Below are positions 2,309-20,530 of a DNA stretch of 64,000 nt, piece after piece. Source of the stretch: Parapedobacter koreensis. GTDB taxonomy: Bacteria > Bacteroidota > Bacteroidia > Sphingobacteriales > Sphingobacteriaceae. Where the stretch lies: contig NZ_FNZR01000008.1 of the NCBI RefSeq assembly GCF_900109365.1, positions 1 to 64,000 of the forward strand, in the 5' to 3' direction. The notes below the pieces were generated by a model that saw only the letters and a program-made list of their open reading frames with translations, made no database searches and was not told the DNA's origin. Each line of letters starts with the position of its first letter. The first letter of the stretch is position 1. A program made the position numbers and the translations under genes.

Positions 2309-3346
2309 GTGAAAACCTTTTTTAAAGTTGTTTTGTACCTGATTGCAGGCGTGCTGGGCATCGCCCTGCTCGTTGTAGCTTATTTTTTTATCAGCAATAA
2401 TGCCTTTATCGGTTCCGTTGATGACGAGTTTGTTCGCTACCTCGACCAGCATGAAATGCCGATTTCCGGCACCTTTGATGACGAATCGACCGTATATTTA
2501 TTTGGAGAAAACCACGGCTTTGCAGGCAATCAGCTGGCAGATGAACAGCTATTCTTGTCGCTTAACAAACAATATGGTATTCGGTATTACTTGGCGGAGG
2601 TGGATAGTGCCACTGCTGGGCTATTGAATCGGTTTTTGGCGGCGCCGGAGCAGGATACGCTATTGCTTAAAAATTTTGTCAACGCTTATAGAACACGAAT
2701 CCCACAGCAGGCAAGCCGTGAGCTTTATGACAAATGGAGCCGGCTTCATCAGTTCAACCAGCAACTGGACGACTCGCTGAAAATATCCGTATTGGGGATA
2801 GACAAGGACATCGATGACACGGTGTCTGGCATACCGCGGGATTCGGCCATGATGGTCAATTTTGTAAACATCTTGGCAGCAAAAGGGTTGCAGCGTGAAA
2901 AGTTCTATGGGTTTTTCGGTTTCTTCCATGTACTGCAATCCGACCCCGTGGGTATGGAGCGCCCCTTCGCCCAGCGGTTGAAGGCAGCTAACTACCCCGT
3001 ATGCAGCATTGCTGGATTTGCACTGGACAGCGATATGTACTTGCCAAAAGGTTTGGGTATGCCCACGCCGGATAATGAGCGCGTCGGGATCGCCAATTCG
3101 GACGGACCGCTTATACTGGTCAAAGGAATCAAAGACTTAAAGGCTGCTTCCCTGCCTAATAGTACCACACTGTTTAAGCTGAACGCTAACGGATCGCCGT
3201 ACCTTGCATCTCAGAAATTGATCAGCATTAAAATAATCAAGGTAGGAGCCGACTTCATGCCTAAATCTGAACATGAAACCACCACGGACTATTTCCAATA
3301 TGCGTTGCTGCTGAGGAATTCAGCGGCTTTGCAGGGATTGGAGTAG
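2309..3346 (+). CDS. Membrane-anchored hydrolase-like protein (EreA/TIKI-type fold suspected)
   Basis: A 345-residue protein starting at GTG. An N-terminal transmembrane anchor (residues 6-29) is followed by a periplasmic domain. That domain begins with a GENHG motif (around residue 67) and a following AEVD segment, which recalls the erythromycin-esterase/TraB-TIKI group of metal-dependent hydrolases. A GFFGFFH segment occurs near residue 200 where a second histidine would be needed. I cannot name the reaction. It is monocistronic on the plus strand, and its 3' end overlaps the convergent isomerase gene by 27 nt. Confidence 0.6.
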   Translation: MKTFFKVVLYLIAGVLGIALLVVAYFFISNNAFIGSVDDEFVRYLDQHEMPISGTFDDESTVYLFGENHGFAGNQLADEQLFLSLNKQYGIRYYLAEVDSATAGLLNRFLAAPEQDTLLLKNFVNAYRTRIPQQASRELYDKWSRLHQFNQQLDDSLKISVLGIDKDIDDTVSGIPRDSAMMVNFVNILAAKGLQREKFYGFFGFFHVLQSDPVGMERPFAQRLKAANYPVCSIAGFALDSDMYLPKGLGMPTPDNERVGIANSDGPLILVKGIKDLKAASLPNSTTLFKLNANGSPYLASQKLISIKIIKVGADFMPKSEHETTTDYFQYALLLRNSAALQGLE

Positions 3347-4198
3347 GGTGGACCGAAGATAGGCTACGCTTTCCCGGATGGCGGGTACGCTGTCAAACGC
3401 GGGATCGTTACGCCGGTATTCGTATTCCACAGCAATCACTCCCCGGAAAGATTGCCGCTGCATTTCGTGGATTACGGCTTTCAGGTTTGCTTTGCCCTGC
3501 CCCCACCACACATCATGTGCATCGGGGTCACCGGTAGCGTTCAGATCTTTCATATGTATTGATATCAGCCTGCCCTCCAATAATTTGAGACTTTCGAGTG
3601 GGCTTAGTCCTGAACGCATCCAGTGGCCGATGTCGGCACAAGCGCCGATGGCTTGATTGTGGTCAATAACCGTTGAGCGTACGGTTTCTGGATTCCAGTA
3701 AGGGCTCGGAATGGCGTGGTTATGTATGGCTACCTTTATTCCATATTCCGCTGTCAATTCATCCAATAAAGGCATAGACTCCACTTTGGGTTCCGAGACA
3801 ATGGTTTCGATTCCCATATCCTTGGCGAAATCAAACAACTGGGACCATTCTTCACGGGTAGCAGGATTTACCACGCCGTAGGCTATTAGTTTTATGCCTT
3901 TGTCCTCAAGCATTTGCTTGACCTGTCGGCGTGTCTGCGCATCCATTCGGAAATCAGTAGCACCCGGTATCCCACCACCAATTTGCTGCTGTGGGAATGC
4001 CTCGACGTATCGCAAACCACAAGCGATCACCTTGTCCAATGTTTCGGCAAAGGTAAGCGGTCGATACGTCGAGGCCTGCATCGCCAGTTTCCAGCCGATC
4101 GTTTCTTCGGGATAGTTGTTTTCGGCAGGTTGTGCGTATCCCTGTAATCCGGTAAATAAGCTGATAAACAAGGTTATTGATAAGTTGAACGTTTTCAT
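3320..4198 (-). CDS. Secreted sugar phosphate isomerase/epimerase-like TIM-barrel protein
   Basis: A 292-residue protein with an N-terminal signal peptide (residues 1-22, ending GYAQ). The rest is a xylose-isomerase-like TIM barrel: a metal-site Glu in VEAFPQQ, the loop HNHAIPS, then DIGHWMRSG, HMKDLN and the final VEYE strand supply the usual Glu/His/Asp/His/Glu metal set. It is the last gene of the DJ-1/FecR/SusC/SusD/PQQ-DH/MFS operon and starts 2 nt after the permease stop. A periplasmic location with a PQQ dehydrogenase upstream suggests it acts on an oxidised (keto) sugar or glycoside rather than on a phosphorylated one. That is inference from context. Confidence 0.8.
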   Translation of the reverse strand: MKTFNLSITLFISLFTGLQGYAQPAENNYPEETIGWKLAMQASTYRPLTFAETLDKVIACGLRYVEAFPQQQIGGGIPGATDFRMDAQTRRQVKQMLEDKGIKLIAYGVVNPATREEWSQLFDFAKDMGIETIVSEPKVESMPLLDELTAEYGIKVAIHNHAIPSPYWNPETVRSTVIDHNQAIGACADIGHWMRSGLSPLESLKLLEGRLISIHMKDLNATGDPDAHDVWWGQGKANLKAVIHEMQRQSFRGVIAVEYEYRRNDPAFDSVPAIRESVAYLRSTLLQSLQSR

Positions 4199-4200
4199 AA

Positions 4201-5418
4201 TTATGATTTAGTTGGAAGATTTGTTGTTTTTTGGGTTTTAAAAAGAAAGAGGAATAAGACGAGCACCAAACCTGCGATCAGCGAAGGTACCATCCAAATG
4301 GTTTCCCAATGGTGGAATCCATCCTCCGTGACATTGGCATCTACGATAAAACCGGCCAATACGGATCCCAGCATCATCCCCACGCCGTAAGTTGCCAATG
4401 TAATCAGCCCTTGGGCTGCATTTTTGAATTGGTCGCCCGCCTTGTTATTGGTGTAGATTTGCCCGGTTACAAAAAAGAAATCAAAACAAATGCCATGGAT
4501 GAGGATACCTGCAATCAACGGCCATTCACTCCCCGACAGGTACCCTAATCGAAATAACGCGTAACGTATGGCCCAGCCCAGCATGCCGAGCCCCAACATG
4601 TATTTGACACCCAGACGTACGAAAAAGAAGGGCATCAGTAGCATGAACAGCAATTCGGACACTTGGCCCATTGCTTGGATTCCAGCCGCCGATTTGACAC
4701 CGATTTCATTGAAAAATGGATTGGTGAAACTGTAATAGAATGCTAACGGAATGCATAGTGCGATGGAAGCTAAAAAGAAAACCAGGTAAGAGCGGTCTTT
4801 GAGTAATCGGAGGGCATCCAACCCAAGCGTATCACCCAATGATACTTGCCCCCCTCTTTTTAGCGGCGGCGTGGCGGGTAGAAAAAATGTCATAACGGCC
4901 ATGCCTCCGGAAGCAAGAGCCGCCATTTTAAAGGTATTGGGTAACTGTCCGCTTTGTTCCCATGCCGTATAGCCGATAATGAGTCCCGCGACGACCCATC
5001 CCAAAGTTCCAAAAACGCGTATTGGCGGAAACTCTTTGTCCGGATTGTTCATTTGCCGGAAGGAAATGGTATTGATCAATGCCATCGTCGGCATATAGAC
5101 CATCATGTATAACAGGATAATGATGTAAAAATTGCCGAATACGTCCGTCGATCCAGCACACCAAAGCAAAATGCCTCCAATGATATGCAGGATGCACAAC
5201 AGCCGTTGTGCGGCGATATAGCGATCGGCAAGCAGGCCAATCAAAAAAGGAGGAAGGATGGCACCGATGGATTGGGCCATGAAGGTCAATCCGACCTGCG
5301 TACCCGACGCTTGTAGGTTCTTGATTAAAAATGTTCCCACCGTGACGAACCATGACCCCTTGATAAAAAATTGGAGGAACATCATCAATGACAATTTGAT
5401 ACGGATTGTTGTATTCAT
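4201..5418 (-). CDS. MFS permease of the nucleoside:H+ symporter (NupG) family
   Basis: A 405-residue protein with about twelve hydrophobic segments and the NupG-family start (IKLSLMMFLQFFIKGSWFVT). The open frame reaches 5454, but ATG at 5418 is chosen because the earlier part overlaps the end of the dehydrogenase gene. Members of this family in Bacteroidota carry sugars and oxidised sugars as well as nucleosides. Here it sits 8 nt after the PQQ dehydrogenase and 2 nt before the isomerase, so it is the likely inner-membrane importer for the product made in the periplasm. Confidence 0.85.
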   Translation of the reverse strand: MNTTIRIKLSLMMFLQFFIKGSWFVTVGTFLIKNLQASGTQVGLTFMAQSIGAILPPFLIGLLADRYIAAQRLLCILHIIGGILLWCAGSTDVFGNFYIIILLYMMVYMPTMALINTISFRQMNNPDKEFPPIRVFGTLGWVVAGLIIGYTAWEQSGQLPNTFKMAALASGGMAVMTFFLPATPPLKRGGQVSLGDTLGLDALRLLKDRSYLVFFLASIALCIPLAFYYSFTNPFFNEIGVKSAAGIQAMGQVSELLFMLLMPFFFVRLGVKYMLGLGMLGWAIRYALFRLGYLSGSEWPLIAGILIHGICFDFFFVTGQIYTNNKAGDQFKNAAQGLITLATYGVGMMLGSVLAGFIVDANVTEDGFHHWETIWMVPSLIAGLVLVLFLFLFKTQKTTNLPTKS

Positions 5419-5426
5419 GTTGCGTA

Positions 5427-7634
5427 TTATAAGTGACGAGGTAAAGCAAAGCATATATACGTATCGCCAGACGGCAATCCTACTTTCCCGCCTCCACAGG
5501 CGATGACCACGTACTGGCGGCCATTTACGGAATAGGAGGCGGGCGTAGCAAATCCGGCTGCGGGCAGATCATGCTGCCAAAGCACGTTTCCGGTGCGTTT
5601 GTCAAATGCGCGGATTTTGCGATCTTGTGTAGCGGCGATAAATACGATTCCCCCTTTTGTGACAAGCGGGCCACCGTAATTTTCGGTTCCGGTAGGCGGA
5701 ATACCTCTTGCCGTGAGTTCTGGATGTTCGCCCAACGTTACCTTCCAAAGCACCTCGCCCTTGTTGAGATCGATAGCGTTGAGCGTTCCCCACGGCGGTT
5801 TGATACCCGGATAACCGTTTTGATCAAGGAAACGGACTAGGCCTGTGCTGACATAGGGCGTTTGCGGGGCTGTCGAAGGCTGCGGCGGCGGCGATTCCCG
5901 ATCGGAGGCCTTTTGAGATGTGCTCGTATCCATGTTGGCTGCCTGATCTGGGGCGAGGAGGTATTTGACCAGTGCTCGTTTTTCTCCTTCATTGAGGTGT
6001 TTAAAGGCCGGCATCATGTTGCGCCCATTGTCAATCACTTGATGGATTTCCGGCTCTTTCAGCCTACGGCCAATCCCTTTGAGTGTAGGGAAGGAGGGAT
6101 CCGGACTCACTAAGGACGCCCCGTGGCAGGTCGCACAATTCGTCAGGTATACCGAACGCCCTACTTCGGGAACGGTGCCGTTGCCGTTATTGGCGCCGAC
6201 GGGTATTTCCGCCATCACCTGACTCCAAGGCAGTTCCGAGCTGTTGACATACATGATCTGGCTTTCGAGATCTATCGCTGCGCCACCCCACTCGCCACCG
6301 CCATCGAATCCCGGAAATACCCACGTACCTTCCATGCTGGGTGGCGAAAATTTTGCGCGATGCTTGATTTTTAGGTACCGTTCCATTAAGTACGCGTGGG
6401 TTTCAGGGGTGAGGTCACTCACATCCTCGGGCTCGAATTGCTGCCGGGCAAAAGGTTCTGGCTTTACTGGAATCGGCTGCGTGGGCCAAGGTTTTTCGCC
6501 GGGCAACCCGTCGGTAGGCACCGGTACTTCGTTGATGGGAAAAAGGGGCTTACCACTTACACGGTCGAAAACGAAGACATATCCGTGTTTGGTAATTTGG
6601 GTGATGGCATCTACTTCTTTGCCTCCAATTTTTAAGGTAACCAGATTGGGATTGGCCGGTAGATCGCGGTCCCAGAGGTCGTGATGGACAAATTGGTAGT
6701 GCCAGATATACTGCCCGGTATTGGCATCCAGTGCGATTAAGGAATTGCCAAACCAGTTCATGCCTTTCCGGTTGGCACCATAGTACTCGATGCTTGGGGA
6801 AGCGGTAGGAATATAAACGATCCCTCGCTTTTCATCCAGCGCCATGCCTGCCCAACTGTTTACCTTACCGAAAGTTTTCCATGCATCGGGGTTTTCCCAA
6901 GTATCGTAGCCCAGTTCCCCGGGGTGCGGTATGGTGTGGAAAATCCATTTTCGTTCGCCTGTTCGTACATCATATGCCCGGATGTGGCCGGGCGCATCGC
7001 TCACCCGCGTTCCCAGAATCATTAAGTCTTTGTAAATCACTCCTGGCGTCGTACTGGCCAAAAATGCATTTTCCAAACCTTCTCGGTCAAGGTTTTCCCG
7101 TAGATTTATTTTACCATCTTTCCCGAAGGATTGGATGAGTTGGCCGTTGTTTGCGTTCACTGCATAGACATATGGACCGCTCCCATAAAAAATTCGTTTA
7201 TCAGCCTGTGTACTATCTTCCCAATACATCACGCCTCGGATAACTTGGTAAAACGACCGTTCTGCTTCGGCTGTATCCACACGTTCGGGATCGAACATCC
7301 ATTTCAATGTACCATTAGCGGCATCGAGTGCAAATAGTTTTGATTTTGGGCTCAACCCGTATAGTACGCCATCCACTACAATGGGGTTGCACTGGATCTG
7401 GCTCCGGTTCCTCGGATCCTTATCCGCTGTGCTGAATGTCCACGCTACCTCCAACTGGGCCACGTTTTCCACCGTAATTTGGTCGCCGGCCGAATAGCGG
7501 TTACCGTCTTTAGCGCCTGCGTAAGCTTCCCACTCCAGGTAATCATGGCCGGGTTTCAAAATGGATGGCCCTTGGCAGCATGCCATGAGTACGGCAGCTG
7601 CCAGGGACCAAACGAAAGAGGGATAGCGACTCAT
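5427..7634 (-). CDS. PQQ-dependent sugar/alcohol dehydrogenase with inserted cytochrome c domain
   Basis: A 735-residue lipoprotein (lipobox LMAC, Cys near residue 19). The body is a PQQ beta-propeller of the glucose/quinate dehydrogenase type, with repeated W-docking segments such as DAANGTLKW, DANTGQYIW and DKRTGNVLW. A c-type haem motif CATCH lies at residues 500-504, with a likely axial Met in RNMMPAF (540-541). About 165 residues of propeller follow, so the cytochrome is inserted between blades rather than fused to an end. Electrons would pass from PQQ to this haem and on to the respiratory chain. No PQQ biosynthesis gene is in the window, so PQQ may come from elsewhere. The gene starts 1 nt after the SusD stop. 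The substrate is unknown. Confidence 0.88.
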   Translation of the reverse strand: MSRYPSFVWSLAAAVLMACCQGPSILKPGHDYLEWEAYAGAKDGNRYSAGDQITVENVAQLEVAWTFSTADKDPRNRSQIQCNPIVVDGVLYGLSPKSKLFALDAANGTLKWMFDPERVDTAEAERSFYQVIRGVMYWEDSTQADKRIFYGSGPYVYAVNANNGQLIQSFGKDGKINLRENLDREGLENAFLASTTPGVIYKDLMILGTRVSDAPGHIRAYDVRTGERKWIFHTIPHPGELGYDTWENPDAWKTFGKVNSWAGMALDEKRGIVYIPTASPSIEYYGANRKGMNWFGNSLIALDANTGQYIWHYQFVHHDLWDRDLPANPNLVTLKIGGKEVDAITQITKHGYVFVFDRVSGKPLFPINEVPVPTDGLPGEKPWPTQPIPVKPEPFARQQFEPEDVSDLTPETHAYLMERYLKIKHRAKFSPPSMEGTWVFPGFDGGGEWGGAAIDLESQIMYVNSSELPWSQVMAEIPVGANNGNGTVPEVGRSVYLTNCATCHGASLVSPDPSFPTLKGIGRRLKEPEIHQVIDNGRNMMPAFKHLNEGEKRALVKYLLAPDQAANMDTSTSQKASDRESPPPQPSTAPQTPYVSTGLVRFLDQNGYPGIKPPWGTLNAIDLNKGEVLWKVTLGEHPELTARGIPPTGTENYGGPLVTKGGIVFIAATQDRKIRAFDKRTGNVLWQHDLPAAGFATPASYSVNGRQYVVIACGGGKVGLPSGDTYICFALPRHL

Positions 7635-7635
7635 A

Positions 7636-9420
7636 TCAATAACCGGGGTTTTGCTTCAATGTAGGCACCCCATCTACCATACTGTTGTCGATGACGGTCT
7701 GAGGAATGGGTAGGATCATGTCCGGCATCCGCGAGTATACCGCCCCTTGGATGATGGAGCGCTTCGGGGCTTCGTGTCGTATATACTCATTCAATAATTC
7801 TTCATCAAGCCCGAATCGGATGAGGTCGAAGAAGCGGTGGCCACCTTCCAACCCCAATTCGAGATTCCGTTCGAAAAGGATGGTTCGCAATGCCACCTCT
7901 TGATTGGCAAAGGCTGGATGGCCCGCAGGATACAGCCCGATTTTATAGTTGGCCGCTGACCCCGTTCCGTCGATACGTTGTACCCAATGGTCGGGGCTTC
8001 CCGAATTCTGTGCCATACGGGTGCGAATCTGATTGACGTATTCCCGGGCTTTCTCCAGGCTTCCTACACGCGCTTCCATCTCCGCAGCGTATAAAATAAT
8101 ATCGGCATAGCGGATAATATTGACGTTAAGGGCATTATATGCTTGTCCCGGCATCACGTAAATGCCGTCCTGATCGTTGCGGATATGACCCTTTTTTTGG
8201 ATGTAAGGACCGGATTCGATGGGGGTGTATACCCAATCGGCACCGGGGTTGATACCGAAGTCAAGGAAAGGGATTCCCCGACGGCCTACGCTCCAATCCA
8301 GTCTGGGATCGAGCGGGGCCGTTTCTGGTTCGAAGGGATCTGACGATCGCAATCCGTCGTCGTTTTTTACGCTGTTGGGATTGGTATCGTACATGTCGAG
8401 GTAGGGGAGGCCGTTGTCGTCTACACGGAAATGGTCTACAAACCATTGCGAGGGCGTATAGAATCCTGATCCACGGCCCCATCCCGGCGATTGTGGATTT
8501 TTACCAGAGGCACCGCGGATTTCCTGGTTGCCGTTGTCAATGCTGTTCGTGCCGTCGTTTGCTGAATGTTGTACGGCAAAGACACTCTCCGGGCCGTTTT
8601 CCCGGGTGACGTCGAAGTTGTAGTGAAAATTTTCTTCCAACTGGTATTTTTGGCCGCTGGCGGTGATGCCGTTGGCCATCACGTCATTCAACACCTGTAA
8701 GGCTTCGTCGAAGCCTGTGGGGAGGTCTCCCTCACTTCCTCTGTAAATCAGTATTTTTGCGTAATACGCTTCGGCAGCCCACTTATTCGGCCTGCCCAGG
8801 TCACGTTGGGTCTGGGGCAGGTTTTTCCGTGCAAAGTCAAAATCCGCTTGGATTTGAGGCCAGGTATTGACATAATTGCCGGATTCGTCGGTATTGGGTA
8901 CGCGGAATTCGTTGATGGATTCGATCCATGGAATATGCTTATACCATCGTTTCAGCAGGAAATAATAATGTCCGCGGAGAAAGCGTGCTTCCGCTTCAAT
9001 CTGAGCGGTTTCCTCAGGTGTTAGCTCAGCGACTTGTGGAAGCAAATTCAATACCGTATTGCAAAGGAAAACAGCATTATACAGGTACCTGAAATTGACC
9101 CCTGAACTGTTGGTGTTCACTTCGTAGCGTACCATGAAGTTCATCCAGGCCTGATCGGTCAGCGTCGATCCCTTGTGGGCGTTGCCACCCATCATTTCGG
9201 CCATGGCCATACCGGGCGTGGCCATGCCATAGGCCGCCCAATCCCGCGTCCCGTTGAGTTGCGAATACGCTCCGATAAGTGCTTGTTGGATGCCACTGCG
9301 GGTAGCGACGTTGGTCACACTGAATGAACCTACCGGCTTCTGTGAGAGAAATTCATCTTGGCACGATGTAACCGAAATCGTCAGTACACCCAAGAATGTA
9401 TATATTGTTGATCGTTTCAT
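7636..9420 (-). CDS. SusD/RagB family nutrient-binding outer-membrane lipoprotein
   Basis: A 594-residue protein with a lipoprotein signal (VTSCQDEFL, Cys at residue 20), an N-terminal SusD-like TPR region (motifs such as EAEARFLRGHYYFLLKRWY around residues 140-160) and the long C-terminal RagB/SusD domain with the typical ERNLELGLEGGHRFFDLIRF near residue 530. It covers the SusC barrel as the substrate-binding lid. It follows the SusC gene by 23 nt and precedes the PQQ dehydrogenase with 1 nt between. No starch-type glycoside hydrolase is found nearby, so the ligand is probably a small glycoside, sugar or aromatic sugar derivative. Confidence 0.95.
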   Translation of the reverse strand: MKRSTIYTFLGVLTISVTSCQDEFLSQKPVGSFSVTNVATRSGIQQALIGAYSQLNGTRDWAAYGMATPGMAMAEMMGGNAHKGSTLTDQAWMNFMVRYEVNTNSSGVNFRYLYNAVFLCNTVLNLLPQVAELTPEETAQIEAEARFLRGHYYFLLKRWYKHIPWIESINEFRVPNTDESGNYVNTWPQIQADFDFARKNLPQTQRDLGRPNKWAAEAYYAKILIYRGSEGDLPTGFDEALQVLNDVMANGITASGQKYQLEENFHYNFDVTRENGPESVFAVQHSANDGTNSIDNGNQEIRGASGKNPQSPGWGRGSGFYTPSQWFVDHFRVDDNGLPYLDMYDTNPNSVKNDDGLRSSDPFEPETAPLDPRLDWSVGRRGIPFLDFGINPGADWVYTPIESGPYIQKKGHIRNDQDGIYVMPGQAYNALNVNIIRYADIILYAAEMEARVGSLEKAREYVNQIRTRMAQNSGSPDHWVQRIDGTGSAANYKIGLYPAGHPAFANQEVALRTILFERNLELGLEGGHRFFDLIRFGLDEELLNEYIRHEAPKRSIIQGAVYSRMPDMILPIPQTVIDNSMVDGVPTLKQNPGY

Positions 9421-9443
9421 TTCTTTTGTGTTTACGTTGTCTA

Positions 9444-12400
9444 TTAAAGATTCACCGATAGTCCGAAGATGAATTGCTTCGGGGTAGGGACATAGTTGTT
9501 GACCACGCCCATGGAGGTGTCGCCGCCGCTGGCCTGTGCGTATCCGGGATCCATCAGCGTAGATTTGCTGATGGTCAGTAAGTTTTGTCCCTGCACATAA
9601 ATTCTGAAATTCTCCATGCCGATGCGGCTACTCCACGCCTTCGGCAGCGTATAGCCGAGTTGTACCGTTTTCATCCGAAGGTAAGACGCATCTTCGAGGA
9701 AGTAATCCGTGATGTTGGAAGACGAATAGCTGTCATTGAGGTCGAGCTTGGGAAGTTTGGCACGATCCCCGAGTTCGGGTGTCCACGATTCATAAAGCAT
9801 GCGTGTGCTCCGATTGGTGGTGAAGGTATGGAAATCGATGACGTAGCGGGTATAGTTGAAAACCGTTCCACCCTGATTCCAGAAAAAGAAGCAATTGAAG
9901 TCAAAGTTTTTATAAGCCAACGAAAGATTCAGACTGGTCTGGAAATCGGGATGCGGGCTACCCAGTATGGTCCGATCGTTGCCATCAACGCGTTTATCAC
10001 CATTGATGTCCTTGATGCGCCACCTGCCGACTTCAGGCGTCAGCCAGGTCGAGTATTCGGCGGCATAAGCCTCAGCCTCTTCTTGCGTATTGAAAAAACC
10101 GTCAATCTGATAGCCGTAGAAGCTGGAGATGGGATAGCCTGCCTGTGTCAATACCGCGTTGCCTATACGTGTGCTGCCGCCAGCCAACACAGCCAAGGGA
10201 TTGTCCAGTACACGGATAACGTCGTTCCGATACATGGAGAAAATCAACGATGCGGTGTATTGGAAATTGCCGGGCCTGCTGCGTTTGGTAATTCCAAGGT
10301 CGATGCCTTTATTGGTCAGTTCACCTACATTGACCGACGGTTGGGTGATGCTTGGTCCGGTAAAAGGGGCCTGATTTACGGCCAGGAGATCGGTCGTTCT
10401 ACGCACGTACCAGTCGAAGTTGATGTCCAATGTCGAGCGCAGCAACGTCGCATCAAACCCAAGGTTGAGCGTCGCACTTTTTTCCCAACGCGTGTCCGGG
10501 TTGCCAATTCGTGAGGGAACCAAGCCCACTATGCGCGAGCCATTATCACCAGATATGCCATATGAATTCGGATCGGATGTCACGTACACATCATATTGAT
10601 TGTTGTTGTCCAGGCCATTCTGGTTGCCGATGACGCCCCAACTGGCCCTTAGTTTCAGGTCATCAAGCCAAGTGGCGTCTGCCATGAACGATTCAGAACT
10701 TATCCGCCAGCCCACCGCTGCGGAGGGGAAATAGCCGGTGCGGTAGTTCCTGCCGAATTTGGAAGATTGATCCCGGCGGAGCGTGCCGTTAATGAAATAA
10801 CGATCCTTGAATGTATAGTCTAAACGACCGAAGAGCGAAAACAGTGAACTGCGGGAAAACGATCCCGAATTCGTCTGTGCACCCGTACCTGCCGAGATGA
10901 CCAGGAAGTCTTCGTCATCGTCGATTTCAAGGTTCAACCGGGTGGCGGATAAACTGTTGCCGAATGTGTTGATGGCTTCCGAGCCTACCAATGCCTTAAA
11001 CGTGTGGTCACCCCAAGATTTATTGTAGTTTGCCGTATTTGTCCAAGTCCAGGTATTATCCGTATTCCTGCTTTCCATCAGGGAATTCGGTGGATTGGTA
11101 TTCTGCGCGTGCTCATAGGTCACTTGGGTTAGGTCTAGCGTCCTTGAGTTGGCATAATCGACGCCGAAAGAGGTGTAGAGCGAAAGGCCGTCTAAAATTT
11201 CGGCTTCTGCAAATACATTGCCCAGTATGCCAATCCGATTCGACTTGTCGAAACGGTTGCGCCACGGCTGGGTGACGGGGTTGGTGCTGAATTCGGGTTC
11301 GCCTCCTGTACTTGGCGCGGCATTGCCGGCAGGGTTGCCAAACTCATCCCATACGGGCACCAGTGGATGCATGGTCATGACGGTCGATGCCCAGATGCTC
11401 GATGCGTCGTTGGTCCGGTAGGCAAGTTGTACATTTTCACCTACACGCACCCGTTTCCCCAAATTGAATTGGGTATTGGCCCGCAGCGTATACCGGTCAA
11501 ATTTGTTGTATTCCGAAGCGGTGTTACCCTCATTAAAGTAGTTTAGGCCAATGGCATAATTACCCGCTTCGCCGCCACCACTCAACCCGACTTGATAGGT
11601 CTGTATCGCTGCGGGTTTAAATACTTCTTCGGCCCAGTTGGTGTTTGCCGAACGGACAATTTGGTGCGTGGCAAAGTCGTAGCTATCCGGATTTACCAAT
11701 GCGGCAAATAATGCCTGTTGGCTGGCATTTCCATGCTTGAGGGCTTCAAGCTCCGCACCGCCGATACGGGCACCATTGTTTACAACCATGATGTATTCCG
11801 GGATGACAGGCTCAGGGCCATTGCCGTACTGTGGATGCCCCCAATCGGGATCACCGACTTGCCGGCCTGCACCGATCATGGATTTCCAGTACAGCTCGCC
11901 GTTTTCCTGGGCATTTAATACATCCGGAAAATCGCTTTTCGAAATGAAATTGACACCATAATAGGAGTTGAAGCTCAATTTCGTTTTTCCGGGTTTCCCG
12001 TTTTTGGTGGTGATGATGATGACACCATTTGCTGCACGGGCACCGTAGATGGCCGCCGATGCGGCATCTTTGAGCACCTGCATGGATTCGATGTCGTTGG
12101 CATTGAGGTTGTCTACGCCGCTTTGTGATGCCGGCACGCCGTCTATGATATATAACGGGTCTGATCCGCCGAAGGAGCCAAAACCTCGTATCCGTACCTT
12201 GCCGCCACTTCCGGGCGACCCGCTTGAGCTTACCGTCACACCTGCTGCATTGCCCTGTAGCTGCGTTTTCACATTGCCCGAGGGGATGGATAGCAGGTTT
12301 TCGGTGTCAACGATGGATACCGAACCGATGATGTCTTTCTTTTGCTCTTTGGAGTAGCCCGTTACAACCACTTCGGTGAGTGCTGTTACTTCAGGTTCCA

Positions 12401-13043
12401 TACGAATAATGAGATTGCCGGAGGCTGGTATCGCTACTTGCTGGCTCACGTATCCGATAAACGAAACGGTGAGCAGGCCGCTCCGTTCGGCCAGTGACAG
12501 CACGAATGAACCATTTGTCGCCGTTTTTGTGGTGACACCACTTTCAGCATGAAGGATGCTCACACCTTCCAATGGTAGGCCATTTTCGTCTGTGATTGTG
12601 CCATTAATCGTTTGTTGCATAGGCCCAATTGGTCTCCCATCGCGGGCAAGAGCCTTATTGTCACCGGCCGACTTACCTTTCGTAACCTGTTTTTTCATAA
12701 TGATGATGTGTTGTCCATTTGTCCGCTCAAATCGTAGCCCGGCAGGGTCCAGCAGTTCCCCGAGAAGTTGATGGAGTGGGACGGTGCGCATCTTCGTTTC
12801 GTCAAAAGCCACCTTGATGTTTTCCAGCAAATCGTTGTCATAGTTGAAATTGACGCCGAATTGAGTTTCCAGTTTAGTCAGTACACCGATAAGGGCTTGG
12901 CTGTCTATCGTGGTAGCCGTTCGGTGCTGCCTACCGGAGATCGATGCCATGGATTGTCCTTTGGCATCGTTACTGGGCGCGGCCGATGCGATAAAGACGG
13001 CCAGCCAAAAGATACAAGTAGTTCTTTGCATAGTGCTACACAT
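9444..13043 (-). CDS. SusC-type TonB-dependent transducer with STN domain
   Basis: A 1199-residue outer-membrane importer. In order: signal peptide (1-29), STN/secretin short domain (about 48-117), carboxypeptidase-regulatory-like domain (about 145-215), TonB box (TEVVVTGY, 223-230), plug (235-350; KDAASAAIYGARAANGVI is the hallmark SusC stretch) and a long barrel ending in a terminal aromatic-rich strand (FIFGLSVNL). The STN domain marks it as a transducer that signals to the FecR anti-sigma encoded 171 nt upstream, and through it to the divergent ECF sigma factor at 15044. ATG at 13031 is an alternative start with a better signal peptide. It pairs with the SusD downstream. Confidence 0.95.
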   Translation of the reverse strand: MCSTMQRTTCIFWLAVFIASAAPSNDAKGQSMASISGRQHRTATTIDSQALIGVLTKLETQFGVNFNYDNDLLENIKVAFDETKMRTVPLHQLLGELLDPAGLRFERTNGQHIIIMKKQVTKGKSAGDNKALARDGRPIGPMQQTINGTITDENGLPLEGVSILHAESGVTTKTATNGSFVLSLAERSGLLTVSFIGYVSQQVAIPASGNLIIRMEPEVTALTEVVVTGYSKEQKKDIIGSVSIVDTENLLSIPSGNVKTQLQGNAAGVTVSSSGSPGSGGKVRIRGFGSFGGSDPLYIIDGVPASQSGVDNLNANDIESMQVLKDAASAAIYGARAANGVIIITTKNGKPGKTKLSFNSYYGVNFISKSDFPDVLNAQENGELYWKSMIGAGRQVGDPDWGHPQYGNGPEPVIPEYIMVVNNGARIGGAELEALKHGNASQQALFAALVNPDSYDFATHQIVRSANTNWAEEVFKPAAIQTYQVGLSGGGEAGNYAIGLNYFNEGNTASEYNKFDRYTLRANTQFNLGKRVRVGENVQLAYRTNDASSIWASTVMTMHPLVPVWDEFGNPAGNAAPSTGGEPEFSTNPVTQPWRNRFDKSNRIGILGNVFAEAEILDGLSLYTSFGVDYANSRTLDLTQVTYEHAQNTNPPNSLMESRNTDNTWTWTNTANYNKSWGDHTFKALVGSEAINTFGNSLSATRLNLEIDDDEDFLVISAGTGAQTNSGSFSRSSLFSLFGRLDYTFKDRYFINGTLRRDQSSKFGRNYRTGYFPSAAVGWRISSESFMADATWLDDLKLRASWGVIGNQNGLDNNNQYDVYVTSDPNSYGISGDNGSRIVGLVPSRIGNPDTRWEKSATLNLGFDATLLRSTLDINFDWYVRRTTDLLAVNQAPFTGPSITQPSVNVGELTNKGIDLGITKRSRPGNFQYTASLIFSMYRNDVIRVLDNPLAVLAGGSTRIGNAVLTQAGYPISSFYGYQIDGFFNTQEEAEAYAAEYSTWLTPEVGRWRIKDINGDKRVDGNDRTILGSPHPDFQTSLNLSLAYKNFDFNCFFFWNQGGTVFNYTRYVIDFHTFTTNRSTRMLYESWTPELGDRAKLPKLDLNDSYSSSNITDYFLEDASYLRMKTVQLGYTLPKAWSSRIGMENFRIYVQGQNLLTISKSTLMDPGYAQASGGDTSMGVVNNYVPTPKQFIFGLSVNL

Positions 13044-13159
13044 TTAGATTTACATTAGTTAAGTTTACATTCAACATTCAATCTGTTGCTTTGTAATTAA
13101 TTGGTAATTAATTGGTTATTTTCATTTTATTTTGTGATTAAGCAGCAAAATCATCCCTT

Positions 13160-13198
13160 ACGACCACATGGCGGTCGTTTGGCCAATTACTGCCAAAC
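13160..13198. other. Two adjoining, mutually exclusive hairpins between fecR and susC
   Basis: The first pairs ACGACC (13160-13165) with GGTCGT (13173-13178). The second pairs GTTTGGC (13177-13183) with GCCAAAC (13192-13198). They share two bases, so only one can form fully. They lie in the 171-nt gap between the FecR stop and the SusC start, the only sizeable gap in the operon, where an attenuator or a processing site could raise SusC expression over FecR. There is no U tract, so simple termination is unlikely. Confidence 0.35.
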
Positions 13199-13214
13199 CG
13201 TTGGTTATTTCGAT

Positions 13215-14252
13215 CTAATTGGTATTTCCTATCGTCACGTGTTGGTCCTGCTCCTGGACATTGACACCAAAGGCCTTGCCAATGGAGCGCAACAGTAGTG
13301 AGATTTCATTAGCAGCGCAGGAGCCCGTAAAATGTTTTCCTGCGAGTGTTGGGTCGTCAAAGACGACACGGTATCCATAATTATCTTCTAATATACGCGC
13401 CACTTCCTGTAAAGGCGTTTTTTTGAAGATGAGTCTGTGATCCCTGAATGAGCCATATCGGCTGGGTTCCTCCACCTGTTCTTTATGCCACGCGCTCTTT
13501 TGCGCATCCCATACAATCAATTCCCCGGGCTGCATGTACACCGCATCGTGATCTACTTCATTGAATGCTGCTGTATTGCTCACCTTTACCTTACCTTCTT
13601 CCAGCACGACCTGTTTCTTCATCGGTCGGTTAGTCATCGTAAATTTGGTGCCCAGTACTTCTACACCCATTTCATCGGCTGTCTGAATGAGGAATCGCTG
13701 GTGGTCTGGGGTATGTATGACGCTGAAATGGGCTTCACCTACCAGGCTTACTACACGGGTGGCTGCGTCAAAATCTTTTTCTTGGTAGTTCAATGTCGAA
13801 TTTCCATTGAGCACCACACGCGAACCGTCCGGCAGGGCGATAGATTTCACTTCGCCATAAGCCGTAGTAAAGGATACGGTAGTCGTCTGATTGGCTAGCC
13901 AATAAATACCTATCGAAATCGCCATGATGACACCTGCCCAAAGCGCCGCTATTCGGCTCCAGCGTCTGATTGTTGATTGTCGTGTTTTTGGCAGCGTGAT
14001 TACCGTCGTTTCTTGTGTACGGTGCTGAATGGTGCTCCACATCAAATCGATCTTCGAATCGGACAGTTCCTCGCCCAAGCCCTGAAACGCTGCCAATAGT
14101 TGCTTCGCTTTATGGATTTCTCCCTGTTGATCCGGGTGCTGGCTTGCCCAGTTTTCCCAAAAATGGGCATGTTCTCCCTCGGGATGCAAGCACCATTCTT
14201 GGAAGGATTCGTCTTTTATAAAATCGATTGCTTGATATTTCGAATAGTCCAT
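13215..14252 (-). CDS. FecR family anti-sigma factor
   Basis: A 345-residue protein: a cytoplasmic sigma-binding region (residues 1-95), one transmembrane helix (about 101-120, AALWAGVIMAISIGIYWLA), the periplasmic FecR domain (VSFTTAYGEVKSIALPDGSR, about 125-225) and a C-terminal DUF4974/STN-like domain (about 270-345) that meets the STN domain of the SusC transducer. It is encoded just before susC in the same operon and is the expected partner of the ECF sigma factor at 15044, which is transcribed divergently rather than directly upstream as is usual. The DJ-1-like gene sits where the sigma gene would normally be. Confidence 0.92.
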   Translation of the reverse strand: MDYSKYQAIDFIKDESFQEWCLHPEGEHAHFWENWASQHPDQQGEIHKAKQLLAAFQGLGEELSDSKIDLMWSTIQHRTQETTVITLPKTRQSTIRRWSRIAALWAGVIMAISIGIYWLANQTTTVSFTTAYGEVKSIALPDGSRVVLNGNSTLNYQEKDFDAATRVVSLVGEAHFSVIHTPDHQRFLIQTADEMGVEVLGTKFTMTNRPMKKQVVLEEGKVKVSNTAAFNEVDHDAVYMQPGELIVWDAQKSAWHKEQVEEPSRYGSFRDHRLIFKKTPLQEVARILEDNYGYRVVFDDPTLAGKHFTGSCAANEISLLLRSIGKAFGVNVQEQDQHVTIGNTN

Positions 14253-14261
14253 AACACGAAA

Positions 14262-14867
14262 TTAGCGGAAGTTTTGCGTGTAATTGCGTAGTAGATGCAT
14301 AAATTGCGGCAAGCATTCGGCATAATCATGCCATGTCCGGGTGGTTACGAGGTTGCCATCTACCGCGACCGGTTGATTGACGTAGGTTGCTCCTCCCTGT
14401 TTTGCGTCCAACGCGCATTTGGCTACAGTGGTCACGGTGCGGCCATGGATCACACCGGCTGCACTGACGATTTCAATGCCGTGGCACACGACGCCGACGG
14501 GTTTATTTTGCTCAAAGAAATGCCTGACAATTCGAATGAGATCCGTGTCGTATCGGATGTATTCCGGCGCCCGTCCGCCAGAAATGAAAATCCCGTCATA
14601 CGCTTCCGGGTCTACGTCTTTAAATGCCACGGTGGCCTCGATATGATATCCGGGACGTTCCTCAGTAATGTCCCACTTTACGTCCTTTCGTTTCGGAATT
14701 TCGTGTAGCACCATGGCATAAGTGCGCGCTTCGGGCCCGGCTACAACGGTTTCATAATTTTCCTCACCTATTCGGAAATACGGATACAGTGTATCCACGG
14801 TCTCCGAAGCATCACCGATAGGCATCAGCACTTTCCCTACCCAATTCGCTTTCTTTGCAGTTGTCAT
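14262..14867 (-). CDS. DJ-1/PfpI family protein
   Basis: A 201-residue protein with the DJ-1/PfpI fold. The nucleophile elbow is GVVCHGIEI (Cys about residue 147, followed by His), and the acidic partner region is GIFISGGRAPEYIR (the glutamate in PEYIR fits the conserved Glu next to the cysteine in 3D). The family includes deglycases, glyoxalases III and amidases. It is the first gene of the operon that continues 9 nt later with fecR and then susC/susD and the PQQ dehydrogenase. Its place suggests a role in handling reactive carbonyl or keto-sugar products of that pathway. This is inference. Confidence 0.85.
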   Translation of the reverse strand: MTTAKKANWVGKVLMPIGDASETVDTLYPYFRIGEENYETVVAGPEARTYAMVLHEIPKRKDVKWDITEERPGYHIEATVAFKDVDPEAYDGIFISGGRAPEYIRYDTDLIRIVRHFFEQNKPVGVVCHGIEIVSAAGVIHGRTVTTVAKCALDAKQGGATYVNQPVAVDGNLVTTRTWHDYAECLPQFMHLLRNYTQNFR

Positions 14868-14970
14868 AACCTGATTAAATTGGTTCTTTTATCTACATAA
14901 GGGAGGAATACAGAAAAGTCCATCAAAAAAAATTAAAAAAAATAAAAAAATGTTCATTTATTTAATTCTT

Positions 14971-14983
14971 TACCTTTGTCGCG
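14971..14983 (+). promoter_or_regulatory. Promoter -7 element of the ECF sigma gene
   Basis: TACCTTTG at 14971-14978 fits the Bacteroidota consensus TAnnTTTG and lies 65 nt upstream of the sigma gene ATG. The extended form TACCTTTGTCGCG is repeated with one change upstream of the second ECF sigma gene (53410-53422, minus strand). No clear -33 TTG was found at the usual spacing; the upstream region is A/T-rich. Confidence 0.6.
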
Positions 14984-15043
14984 AAGTAATAAGGACTGAT
15001 CAATAATTTCGTAGCCTAATTAAAAACTCGCGGTATTTCAATC

Positions 15044-15628
15044 ATGGCCGATCGGAGTTTCAATGACATTGAATTATGGAGCCGTTTTAAGGCTGGAGAT
15101 CCTTCCAGTTTTGCGTCGATCTATCGGCAGCATGTTCGCGCGTTATACAGTTTTGGAAAACAGCTGGTTGACGACGGAGACTTAGTGGCCGATGCGGTCC
15201 AGGAGTTGTTTATCTACATCTGGGAAAGAAGAGCCCATTTAGGTGATACGGATAATATTCGTCATTACCTTTTTAAAGCCCTGCGGCGGCGGCTGATCGA
15301 TGCCATCTCAAAGCAGCAACGGACGGTGCAGGTTCATGAAACCACCGTTGATCGGCGTGCGGCCGAAGATTCCATTGAACAGACCCTGATTAAACACCAA
15401 GCCGATATCGAGCTGCGGGCCCTACTTCAGCAGGCGCTGCGTCAGCTAACCAAGCGGCAGCGCGAGGCGATATTCTTGCGTTTTTTTGGCAAGATGAGTT
15501 TCAGAGAGGTCGCGGATATTATGTCGTTGAGCCTCAAATCCACCTATAACCTTATCGCCAAAGCCCTTGATGAATTGCGAAAACATTTTCCGCTAATGCT
15601 GGCAGTCGCCGTTGCGATGCTGGGCTAA
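15044..15628 (+). CDS. ECF RNA polymerase sigma-70 factor (FecI-like)
   Basis: A 194-residue sigma factor of the Bacteroidota ECF group. Region 2 (residues 10-80) has the core-binding VADAVQELFIYIWERR stretch, and region 4 (about 120-180) has the HTH segment MSFREVADIMSLSLKSTYNLIAKAL with the usual R/E pair. It is transcribed away from the DJ-1/fecR/susC operon and is the natural partner of that FecR. The C-terminus has an extra hydrophobic tail (LMLAVAVAMLG), common in this group. Its stop codon overlaps that of the rhomboid gene (CTAA). Confidence 0.93.
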   Translation: MADRSFNDIELWSRFKAGDPSSFASIYRQHVRALYSFGKQLVDDGDLVADAVQELFIYIWERRAHLGDTDNIRHYLFKALRRRLIDAISKQQRTVQVHETTVDRRAAEDSIEQTLIKHQADIELRALLQQALRQLTKRQREAIFLRFFGKMSFREVADIMSLSLKSTYNLIAKALDELRKHFPLMLAVAVAMLG

Positions 15629-16362
15629 CGGCGAGTCGGTAGCCTGAAACGATTGACCAACAGCAACCCGGCGATGAACCCGCCGATATGGGCTGCATAG
15701 GCAACGCCACCAGCCTGCTCGCCACCCAAAGCACCGAGCCCATTGCTTACTTGAAACAAAAACCACAGGCCAATAGCGACAATGGCAGGGACGGAAAAAA
15801 CCAAAAAAAACATCCAAATGGTAATGCGTTTATGCGGGAAAAGCACCATATACCCAGCCAGAACGGCAGAAATAGCACCCGATGCACCTAAACATGGGGT
15901 CAATAGATTCTGCCCAAAAAACAGCGTGGCGAATACGTGGCTCAGGCCGCTCAATATGCCGCATAATAAATAGAAAATCAGGTACCGGAAATGGCCCAGC
16001 CGATCTTCTACGTTGTCTCCGCATATCCAAAGGTAAAGCATGTTTCCTGCTAAATGGCCTACCCCGCCATGCATAAACATGGCCGTAATAAGCGTCAGAA
16101 AGACTGGTATATCGGTACGCTGCAATCCGGGCATCTCAAACGATTTGCCCGAAATCGGATCGACCACAAGCTGGCTTTCTGTCACCAAATCTTTTCCAGT
16201 CAATATCTCCGCAGGGATGGTCGCATACGAAAAGGTGAATTGGATGTTGTAGCCGAGACCCTGGAAATACACAAAGACAAAAATGTTTAAACCGATCAGT
16301 AAATAATTGACAAACGGGAACGATCTCCGGTCGTGATTTTCATCTCCAATGGGTAGTAGCAT
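15625..16362 (-). CDS. Rhomboid family intramembrane serine protease
   Basis: A 245-residue membrane protein with about six helices. The catalytic set is visible: GASGA with Ser161, His225 in AAHIGG and the helper Asn107 in HLAGNML. It cleaves transmembrane segments of unknown partners. An insertion of about 50 residues after the first helix (residues 40-85) is the L1 loop region, which is long here. It is convergent with the ECF sigma gene and shares a 4-nt stop overlap with it; no functional link is implied. Confidence 0.93.
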   Translation of the reverse strand: MLLPIGDENHDRRSFPFVNYLLIGLNIFVFVYFQGLGYNIQFTFSYATIPAEILTGKDLVTESQLVVDPISGKSFEMPGLQRTDIPVFLTLITAMFMHGGVGHLAGNMLYLWICGDNVEDRLGHFRYLIFYLLCGILSGLSHVFATLFFGQNLLTPCLGASGAISAVLAGYMVLFPHKRITIWMFFLVFSVPAIVAIGLWFLFQVSNGLGALGGEQAGGVAYAAHIGGFIAGLLLVNRFRLPTRR

Positions 16363-16874: not shown

Positions 16875-17525
16875 TTACAGTTCCAGACCAAAAAATGTGG
16901 CTACTTTGTCATAGTTTTCGAAAGGAATTTGCTGAAGCCTTGCGGCCTCCATGGCCTGCCCTTCAACGACGACAACCTTAAACTGAATGCCTGGTGCCGT
17001 AGGTGCCGTATTGGTTGAATAGTGCATTCGCAATGTCACACCGCCTGTTTTTACACCGTAGGAAAAATTTACCGTTCGCCCGCTTTCAAAGTAGGAAACG
17101 GGCAACGCACTCCAAGGCTCTCCCCAAAAGAAACCTCCATATACCATCACTATACCATTGTTTACGATTGCCGCAGTAATCTCGGGTATGTCAAGTGAAG
17201 CGGTGACATAGTTGGTGCCAAATAGCGTGGTATTTCTCCAGGTAATTTGGGAAGCGGTAAATGTGCGGGATTTGACATTGGCATTGCCCGGATCGCCTTT
17301 ATCTCCTTTGGGTCCCTGAGGTCCCCTTGGGCCGGTTGCACCCTGTGCGCCAGTGGTGCCGCGCGGCCCGGTTTCGCCCCGTTCGCCCTTGTCACCTTTA
17401 TCGCCTTTCTCTCCTTCTACGCCTTCCGGACCCTGTGGACCAATATCCCCTTTTTCACAGCCGCTACCCAACAGGGTGGCCATCGCAACCGCCGTGATAA
17501 CTAATAATTGATTAATAAGACGCAT
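16875..17525 (-). CDS. Collagen-like triple-helix repeat lipoprotein
   Basis: A 216-residue product. ATG at 17525 gives a clean lipoprotein signal with lipobox LGSGC (Cys23), so it is preferred over the in-frame ATG at 17576. Residues 26-80 are 18 uninterrupted Gly-X-Y triplets rich in GDKG, GERG and GPRG, charged and proline-containing as in bacterial collagens. A globular C-terminal domain of about 135 residues follows (beta-rich, with [12 protein letters not shown]). The product is probably a trimeric stalk with a head on the cell surface. Its ligand is unknown. The divergent gapN gene lies 267 nt away. Confidence 0.85.
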
Positions 17526-17668
17526 AACTAACAGGTATATTTCTGTGACGAAAATAATAAGCGATTCCTTTCCCATGGTTTATAGTGAGTGAAGAACGAA
17601 CCCGATTGAGCGAATCCGCGGGTTGAATGAGTAATTGTGTCTCAGCGGCAGCGGAGAGACCGATAAAC

Positions 17669-19427: not shown

Positions 19428-20437
19428 GTTTTTAGTTTGATCCGCAGCACGTAGGTATCATTGGTCACATAAATTGTTTTTTCATCGGTAGATAGGGCCA
19501 CATTGGATGCCGCTTCTTCTAATCGTATTTTTCCCAGCACTTTCCCATCGGGGTTGAATATCCAGATACCACCGGGGCCGCTGGCAAATACGGTTCCGTT
19601 TTTAGCGATCTTCAATCCATCGGGTAGGCCATTTAATCCGTTGCGTTCGTTGGTGGCACTGTAAAATAAGGTGGGAGTTGCTCGTGTATCACCGGCATCA
19701 AGTATGTACCAGTTGGCCGCGTTGGGGTCAGAACAGGCAACCAATAATTTTTCTTCACCGGGGAAGAATGCAATCCCGTTCGGCCGTGTAATGCTGTCGG
19801 CCAGCAATACGATGTCACCATTCGGCTTTACCTTATAAACCCCATTAAAAGCAATTTCTTTTGCAGGATCATCGTCATTTTGCGCAGGCAGTCCATAAGG
19901 TGGATCCGTAAAAAACAGTTCGCCGGACCGATTATACACGGCATCATTTGGGCTGCTGAAGCGCTTGCCGCCATACCTATCGGTCAAGGTAATAAACGCA
20001 GCTGCCGGTTTGTCCAAAGGGGCTTCCATCTTGGCCATCCGCCTGTCGCCATGCTGGCACAGCACAAGATTGCCGCCATTGTCCAGCAGCAACCCATTGC
20101 TGCCCGGTTCCTTGCTTTGGCTGGGCGCTGCTCCCGTATAGCCACTTGGTTGTAGATAGACTTCCGTGCCGTTTTCTGCTGTCCACTTATAAACCGTATT
20201 TGCAGGCACGTCTGAAAACAACAGCATTTGTTTGCTTTCTACCCATAGAGGTCCTTCACTCCAATCAAAGCCTTCCGCAATGATTTCGGCTTTTGCGTTG
20301 GTGTCAATAATGGCGTCCAATGCCGGGTCAAGGCGCTCGATATGGCCCGTAGTTTTATACTTCATTTGTCCGGATTGTTGCGTATTGTTGCAGGCTATCG
20401 CCACGGTTAGAACGCCTAAAATAAGTATTGGTTTCAT
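19424..20437 (-). CDS. SMP-30/gluconolactonase family lipoprotein
   Basis: A 337-residue product. ATG at 20437 gives a lipoprotein signal with Cys18 in IACNNTQ; the open frame continues back to 20563, but that part runs through the tRNA gene and is rejected. The six-bladed propeller motifs are present: EGFDWSEGPLWV (metal Glu), SSPNDAVYN, RPNGIAFF and GLPDGLKIA. These supply the Glu/Asn/Asn/Asp metal set of gluconolactonases. It hydrolyses sugar lactones in the periplasm or at the surface. It could open lactones made by a PQQ sugar dehydrogenase such as the one at 5427-7634, but it is not in that operon. Confidence 0.88.
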   Translation of the reverse strand: MKPILILGVLTVAIACNNTQQSGQMKYKTTGHIERLDPALDAIIDTNAKAEIIAEGFDWSEGPLWVESKQMLLFSDVPANTVYKWTAENGTEVYLQPSGYTGAAPSQSKEPGSNGLLLDNGGNLVLCQHGDRRMAKMEAPLDKPAAAFITLTDRYGGKRFSSPNDAVYNRSGELFFTDPPYGLPAQNDDDPAKEIAFNGVYKVKPNGDIVLLADSITRPNGIAFFPGEEKLLVACSDPNAANWYILDAGDTRATPTLFYSATNERNGLNGLPDGLKIAKNGTVFASGPGGIWIFNPDGKVLGKIRLEEAASNVALSTDEKTIYVTNDTYVLRIKLKT

Positions 20438-20488
20438 AATTTTTATTTTATGCTTCGCTGGGTATCCCCCTCTCGGGTTAACAAAAAC

Positions 20489-20521: not shown

Positions 20522-20530
20522 GTTTTTCAG

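Follow-up and report, generated by a model that had tools for sequence, protein, structure and literature searches.

In the first 64,000 nucleotides of contig NZ_FNZR01000008.1 of Parapedobacter koreensis (NCBI RefSeq assembly GCF_900109365.1; this whole stretch is the window) we examined an eight-gene locus at positions 3320-15628, in which a SusC/SusD (SusCD) outer-membrane uptake pair is followed directly by a pyrroloquinoline quinone (PQQ) dehydrogenase and in which there is no glycoside hydrolase. We put it at about even chances that this locus serves the TonB/SusCD uptake and the oxidative, rather than hydrolytic, cleavage of a glycoside or a comparable polyhydroxylated compound. The original prediction, made from the sequence alone, had described seven co-directional genes with a divergent extracytoplasmic function (ECF) sigma factor gene, and the open reading frames (ORFs) together with Pfam and NCBIfam searches bore out both this arrangement and the families named. 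The features are as follows, where TIM denotes the triosephosphate isomerase barrel fold and MFS the major facilitator superfamily:

3320-4198, minus strand: TIM-barrel protein (PF01261, 73.6 bits by Pfam), predicted keto-sugar beta-eliminase or lyase
4201-5454, minus strand: NupG/LacY-type MFS permease (PF03825, 346 bits), predicted inner-membrane importer
5427-7634, minus strand: PQQ dehydrogenase lipoprotein (PF01011, 630 bits) with cytochrome c domain (PF13442)
7636-9420, minus strand: SusD-family surface lipoprotein (PF07980, 124 bits; PF14322, 65 bits)
9444-13043, minus strand: SusC-family TonB-dependent receptor (TIGR04056, 817 bits)
13044-13214, minus strand: 171-base gap between FecR and SusC, by its position the probable promoter region of the SusCD, PQQ dehydrogenase, permease and TIM unit
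13215-14252, minus strand: FecR-type anti-sigma factor (PF04773 and PF16344)
14262-14867, minus strand: DJ-1/PfpI protein (PF01965, 115 bits)
15044-15628, plus strand: divergent ECF sigma factor (Sigma70 regions 2 and 4)

From these genes we infer a substrate, an oxidised carbon, an elimination, an order of steps and a direction of transport. The ECF sigma factor and FecR would switch the locus on, and SusD and SusC would carry the substrate into the periplasm, where the lipoprotein PQQ dehydrogenase would oxidise a secondary hydroxyl, putatively at C3 of a glycosyl unit, and hand the electrons on to the respiratory chain through the heme c inserted in its propeller. The resulting keto group would acidify the neighbouring C-H, so that a metal-dependent TIM-barrel enzyme with an H-x-H motif could take the proton and expel the aglycone by beta-elimination. 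The NupG-type permease would move the product across the inner membrane, and the DJ-1/PfpI protein may, at a guess, deal with a reactive dicarbonyl product. Uptake, periplasmic oxidation, a second enzyme and import, as originally predicted, fit the locus best; the second enzyme, however, looks like a lyase and not like the rearranging isomerase that had been expected.

Organization of the locus

Transcription on the minus strand runs from DJ-1/PfpI through FecR, SusC, SusD, the PQQ dehydrogenase and the permease to the TIM-barrel gene, with the sigma factor gene divergent. Downstream of SusC the intergenic gaps are 23 bases (SusC/SusD), 1 base (SusD/PQQ dehydrogenase) and 2 bases (permease/TIM). 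The permease ORF as listed overlaps the PQQ dehydrogenase gene by 28 bases, but because its counterpart in a second genome (L039, below) is only 405 residues long, the true start is probably a later methionine near base 5418, in which case the overlap is not needed. Promoter and terminator scans gave signals no richer than in shuffled sequence.

An adjacent SusC and SusD pair, one hallmark of a polysaccharide utilization locus, is present, whereas the other, a glycoside hydrolase or polysaccharide lyase, was found in none of the ten proteins scanned (2309-16362), in agreement with the claim of a SusCD operon without a glycoside hydrolase. The set used in trans-envelope signalling, namely an ECF sigma factor, a FecR protein with its C-terminal domain and a receptor, is complete within the locus; Pfam reported no STN signalling domain on SusC at E≤0.001, and about 140 residues precede the carboxypeptidase-like domain of that protein. 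The sigma factor scored 104 bits against TIGR02985 (cut-off 126.4), and the permease scored 347.2 bits against TIGR00889 (nucleoside permease; cut-off 446.1), on which we rejected strict NupG membership and kept the broader PF03825. Signal peptides and lipoprotein signals were read by eye from the sequence and not taken from a predictor; read in this way, SusD and the PQQ enzyme both begin with a lipoprotein signal, and the TIM-barrel protein begins with a signal peptide that would make it a secreted protein.

Conservation of the locus

We refer to the window's own genome as G000 and to individual loci by L-numbers. All eight genes, with their order and orientations, are kept at 65-90% identity in G057, a genome of the same genus (L039, contig C13), and an identical run in a second genome means that the locus is more than chance; lack of any conserved neighbourhood, which the original prediction had named as the outcome that would speak against it, is thus not what we found. 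Judged by a search with DJ-1, the full locus is absent from the seven other genomes of the genus, and a search of 151 genomes of the family matched the DJ-1/PfpI protein at E≤1e-45 in G000 and G057 alone. In 400 genomes of the order, where the three best-looking candidates of each were scored, SusD relatives above 60% identity outside the window's genome occur only in G057 and G017, the next being at 50-51%. For the TIM-barrel protein, nine of 345 genomes of the phylum, its own included, gave matches at E≤1e-45 (G057 was not in this sample). Because the SusD, DJ-1 and TIM matches are so sparse, the full eight-gene locus looks rare.

G017 belongs to another genus, and there (L053) SusC (58%), SusD (63%) and the PQQ dehydrogenase (56%) are kept together, accompanied by a FecR of low similarity (26%) and by an ECF gene (21%) in the same direction, and without the permease or the TIM-barrel gene. 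Directly after this PQQ dehydrogenase (L053, 6328-8424) lies a gene for a 698-residue TonB receptor with 23.6% identity to E. coli PqqU (E=3e-32); it may serve PQQ uptake, or the similarity may be general receptor likeness only.

These comparisons bear on the possibility that the locus is an ordinary one for polysaccharide-type uptake, with its hydrolases encoded in other parts of the genome and the PQQ and TIM-barrel enzymes as minor accessories. The 73 PF07980 matches in the genome would suit it, as would the GH-like genes in some other loci that combine PQQ enzymes with SusCD (GH32-like and apiosidase-like in L056, alpha-amylase-type in L077). Yet the PQQ gene comes immediately after SusD and is still found with SusCD in the second genus, and the eight-gene run lacks glycoside hydrolases in both genomes that have it; we regard this explanation as very unlikely.

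Active site of the TIM-barrel protein

The original prediction took the TIM-barrel protein for a keto-sugar-type isomerase or epimerase, and the nearest solved structures carry names of that kind or none (3p6l, 222 bits, "sugar phosphate isomerase/epimerase"; 4kw2, 164 bits, "uncharacterized protein"). Its putative active site points elsewhere. H159, H161, D189 and H215 align to H132, H134, D163 and H189 of AtOGE (8BVK), in an alignment made with an 86-residue fragment (residues 140-225) as query and with residue numbers counted by hand along it; the printed alignment stops short of E258, which matches AtOGE E233 by strand position only. Passages of PMC10628242 describe AtOGE as an Agrobacterium enzyme that cleaves C3-oxidised O-glycosides by beta-elimination, in which the metal is held by H132, D163 and H189, and weakly by E233, and the H134A variant is inactive. 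With E258 placed as above, the metal ligands and the catalytic His of an AtOGE-type enzyme are therefore all in place. The match to 8BVK had an E-value of 0.0013 with the single sequence, 6.7e-4 with the fragment and 3.1e-7 with a 12-sequence profile, each covering part of the chain.

All five residues are invariant in the 12-sequence alignment (the window protein and 11 relatives). They also make up 5 of the 11 invariant columns in an alignment of five sequences, which tells only that D, H and E accompany H-x-H, as the four TIM-barrel proteins from PQQ loci in it were picked for that motif (one of them, L074:18031, is within the fetched stretch and outside the PQQ run). An AlphaFold2 model of the protein alone had a mean predicted local distance difference test (pLDDT) score of 47.4. 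Two genomes from another family carry a similar TIM barrel (39% and 37% identity) fused to a PF06439 3-keto-disaccharide hydrolase domain:

L100, 8977-10410: TIM-PF06439 fusion, assigned by Pfam (129 bits)
L101, 8645-10078: TIM-PF06439 fusion, assigned by alignment

A NupG relative is present in both loci, and a Gfo/Idh gene adjoins the L101 fusion. Judged by its H-x-H, D, H, E site, the TIM-barrel protein resembles a beta-eliminase or dehydratase acting on a keto-sugar, and we rejected the plain isomerase/epimerase assignment on the H-x-H ligand pattern.

An elimination would equally occur in a cyclitol or quinate-type route, in which the PQQ enzyme oxidises a ring alcohol (inositol, quinate) and the TIM-barrel enzyme dehydrates the product in the manner of the inosose dehydratase IolE or of a dehydroshikimate dehydratase. 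IolE acts by elimination next to a ketone, as does AtOGE. The TIM profile picks up the IolE structure 3cny at 4.9e-8, with an HxH in the aligned stretch, TIGR04379 (iolE) is the top NCBIfam match of the protein, and TIGR03074, the family nearest to the PQQ enzyme, is named for glucose/quinate/shikimate enzymes. The iolE score, however, is 26.4 bits against a cut-off of 290, far too low for membership, which we rejected, and AsbF (3dx5) matches only at E=0.062; moreover, SusCD suggests a larger ligand, and the PF06439 fusion and the neighbours point to 3-keto-glycosides. Such a route seems quite unlikely to us.

PQQ dehydrogenase and its relatives

The propeller of the PQQ dehydrogenase is interrupted by a heme c domain (PF13442, residues 491-559, with CXXCH at residue 500), PF01011 matching at profile positions 1-444 before the insertion and 453-595 after it. 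Aligned with E. coli Gcd, the enzyme has W261, D322 and K349 in the places of W404, D466 and K493, so that D322 and K349 preserve the catalytic Asp and Lys found in mGDH-type enzymes. Opposite Gcd H262 it has a Tyr and opposite H775 a gap, and it differs at several further positions inspected. The best NCBIfam match was TIGR03074 (glucose/quinate/shikimate PQQ family), matched from profile position 153 at 478.1 bits against a cut-off of 832.65, and strict membership was rejected.

A search for PqqC (TIGR02111) gave no match in 61 genomes of the family or in a set of four genomes that included the window's, and since control genomes were equally silent its absence is not established. Import of PQQ by this SusCD was considered, with nothing found in its support. 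The window's genome also holds a further PQQ dehydrogenase (L057, 10806-12878, contig C18) that is split into separate ORFs and apparently broken.

A second group of PQQ dehydrogenases (L055, L067, L071, L072, L107, L108, L054 and L062) adjoins genes for mandelate-racemase-type dehydratases, lactonase, DUF4440, UxuA or MFS proteins (members in L055, L108, L054, L062 and L107 assigned by Pfam, others by sequence cluster), and these partners look like those that would accompany oxidation at C1 to give sugar acids. A tree of 53 PQQ enzymes places eight of the nine labelled with sugar-acid partners in a 12-row clade (support 100/100) that also takes in an enzyme with RraA and three without a label; the ninth (L074, with a TIM-barrel and a mandelate-racemase-type gene) is placed elsewhere. 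The window enzyme falls in a separate 19-row clade (100/100), where the labelled contexts are TIM (window, L039, L058 and L061) or SusCD only (L053). TIM-linked PQQ enzymes occur in further clades too.

This tree bears on whether the window enzyme might instead oxidise C1 of an aldose or oligosaccharide to a periplasmic aldonolactone, as glucose dehydrogenase does, leaving the TIM-barrel enzyme to isomerise or dehydrate the acid. The TIGR03074 match, albeit below its cut-off, is of the kind one would then expect, as are the sugar-acid partners of the same-genus paralogues and a gluconolactonase-like gene at window positions 19424-20563. But eight of the nine PQQ genes with such partners sit in the other clade, the window operon is without a lactonase or mandelate-racemase-type gene, and the TIM residues are lyase-like, so that C1 oxidation appears unlikely. 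The placement of the window enzyme favours oxidation to a ketone followed by a lyase, without proving it.

Company of PQQ enzymes in the genus

Seven of nine genomes of the genus contain PQQ dehydrogenases, 32 genes in all (PF01011, E≤1e-20; genes counted by hand), and the stretches around them make up 29 loci, the window included, some of them clipped by contig ends. Of the 33 PQQ ORFs (one gene being split in two), 14 have a co-directional SusD gene no more than 5 kb away, versus about 3.2 expected from SusD density, and 14 is a lower count, the SusD profile having missed at least one of SusD-like_2 type (L054). A PF01261-type TIM gene is present in 14 of the 29 loci versus one of 20 controls (Fisher p=0.0013), the controls being regions of comparable size placed at round coordinates in three of these genomes. 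Three of the nine profile seeds in this comparison came from the counted loci and favour them somewhat. NupG is found in two of the 29 loci (window and L039) and in none of the 20 controls.

Several of these operons combine a PQQ gene with one for PF06439. L105 has the order SusC-SusD-PQQ-PF06439 (204 bits), and L103, in the window's own genome, has ECF-PQQ-FecR-SusC-SusD-PF06439 (50.5 bits). PQQ-TIM-PF06439 (58.5 bits) occurs in L055, likewise in the window's genome, with its TIM detected by the custom profile only, and the same order recurs by sequence cluster in L104, L071 and L072. Altogether there are 14 PF06439 matches in the window's genome. The original prediction knew of no described locus of this composition; in the genus it is less isolated than that suggests, as SusCD with PQQ and PQQ with TIM recur, although the exact eight genes were seen only in G000 and G057. 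In two genomes, SusCD, GH32-like, PQQ dehydrogenase, apiosidase-like and nucleoside-hydrolase-like proteins are encoded in one run (L056, assigned by Pfam; L073, by cluster).

Outside the genus the association of TIM with PQQ is weak and hardly commoner than in controls: the profile found TIM in three of 22 PQQ loci of other genera of the family (L041, L061 and L063) versus one of the 20 controls, and co-directional SusC lies within 2 kb in four of the 22 (L053, L059, L069 and L070). In L061, genes for TIM (45% identity), PQQ dehydrogenase, GMC and Gluconate_2-dh3 are adjacent to one another.

These weak associations outside the genus, and the bias in the TIM profile, count against oxidative cleavage of a glycoside at the window locus, and they are joined by a number of other observations. 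To our knowledge no PQQ enzyme oxidises C3 of a glycoside, and another PQQ clade in these same genomes looks like sugar-acid chemistry. Within the window enzyme's own clade, the 14 of 19 rows other than the labelled ones lack a TIM by profile, and among them a co-directional SusC accompanies L059 alone. The AtOGE match is weak, and IolE matches the TIM profile slightly better. H-x-H is missing from some PQQ-linked TIM-barrel proteins (ANH in L055, L104, L071 and L072, ENH in L078 and L110, HPN in L068), and six of nine distant TIM homologues (L095-L099 and L102) have no PQQ, GMC, PF06439 or Gfo/Idh relative nearby, their neighbours mostly having been compared by BLAST only (L099 has an adjoining aldo/keto reductase). 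Gfo/Idh genes are not enriched (six of 29 PQQ loci versus three of 20 controls), nor are 3-keto hydrolases by profile (one of 29 versus one of 20), a count that excludes the PF06439 genes found by Pfam in L055 and L103 and those assigned through sequence clusters in L104, L071 and L072, the controls having been scanned by profile only. Finally, neither a PF06439 nor a Gfo/Idh gene belongs to the window operon, so hydration and reduction must occur elsewhere; in L039 a convergent Gfo/Idh gene (by profile) adjoins the TIM gene.

Other related loci

The window's genome holds a second locus of similar layout, L089, with SusCD, a TIM barrel and a NupG-type permease 50% identical to that of the window. 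In place of the PQQ dehydrogenase it has GMC and Gluconate_2-dh3 (assigned by cluster with Pfam-scanned proteins of L061), making it a flavin version of the layout, and it adds a Gfo/Idh gene. Of the four SusD relatives at 50-51% identity, L086 adjoins a DUF7133-cytochrome c protein and PF06439 (by Pfam), L087 does likewise by cluster, and L084 has a DUF7133-type protein by cluster. A fourth, L085, has no DUF7133 or PF06439 relative and belongs with the contrary points above.

More tentatively than for the window locus itself, we propose a class of Bacteroidota SusCD loci for PQQ-driven, non-hydrolytic glycan cleavage in the periplasm, in which a quinohemoprotein would make keto-glycosides, H-x-H TIM-barrel lyases or 3-keto-disaccharide hydrolases would cut them, and the electrons from the oxidation would feed directly into respiration.

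Neighbouring genes

Next to the sigma factor gene is a convergent rhomboid protease gene (15625-16362), the 3' ends of the two overlapping by 4 bases. It is followed by a gene for a 233-residue protein with collagen triple-helix repeats (16875-17576) and, at 17793-20563, by an aldehyde dehydrogenase gene (plus strand) and the convergent SMP-30/gluconolactonase-like gene (minus strand), about 2-5 kb past the sigma factor gene. These last two are possibly tied to sugar oxidation and lie outside the operon.

Comparison with known systems

Cleavage of glycosides via 3-keto intermediates is an alternative to hydrolysis that, as far as we know, has so far been found only with NAD or flavin enzymes. 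Nasseri et al. reportedly observed such non-hydrolytic glycan cleavage in Bacteroides, with nicotinamide-type oxidoreductases rather than PQQ. If our reading of the window locus is right, it would predict a chemistry for a set of Bacteroidota SusCD loci free of glycoside hydrolases, give PQQ, whether made or scavenged, a further role in carbohydrate breakdown, and offer a testable activity for the structures 3p6l and 4kw2, for which the match table describes no function.

Among PQQ enzymes, E. coli Gcd (mGDH type, TIGR03074) shares the propeller family with the window enzyme, which keeps the equivalents of W404, D466 and K493; the window enzyme differs in its lipoprotein-type start, its inserted heme c, its score below the family cut-off and its loss of Gcd H262 and H775. 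By titles and the beginnings of abstracts, no paper among the matches listed paired PQQ with SusC/SusD, TonB-dependent or polysaccharide utilization loci, many subscription papers lying outside the coverage, and the passages seen of PMC11653725, PMC10199937 and PMC11658791 (PqqU) were unrelated to such a pairing.

Among the closest counterparts is the AtOGE operon of Agrobacterium tumefaciens, which according to passages of PMC10628242 encodes a glycoside dehydrogenase, the O-glycoside beta-eliminase 8BVK, a second TIM-barrel protein (with preliminary evidence for a hydratase) and a Gfo oxidoreductase. It shares with our proposal oxidation followed by cleavage by a metal-dependent TIM barrel, and the metal ligands and catalytic His agree; as described in those passages, however, it has no SusCD or PQQ enzyme, whereas at the window locus we propose a periplasmic PQQ-cytochrome oxidant and the TIM-barrel protein is predicted to be secreted. 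The levoglucosan pathway (LgdA, LgdB1, LgdB2 and LgdC) is likewise presented, in the parts of PMC7676230 that we cite, as oxidation, elimination, hydration and reduction involving proteins annotated as sugar phosphate isomerases, but it uses a levoglucosan dehydrogenase and not a PQQ enzyme, and it acts on one small anhydrosugar. The chemistry of oxidation and beta-elimination is thus already known, as far as these passages go (PMC10628242, PMC7676230), and what would be new at the Parapedobacter locus is that chemistry driven by a PQQ enzyme inside a SusCD locus.

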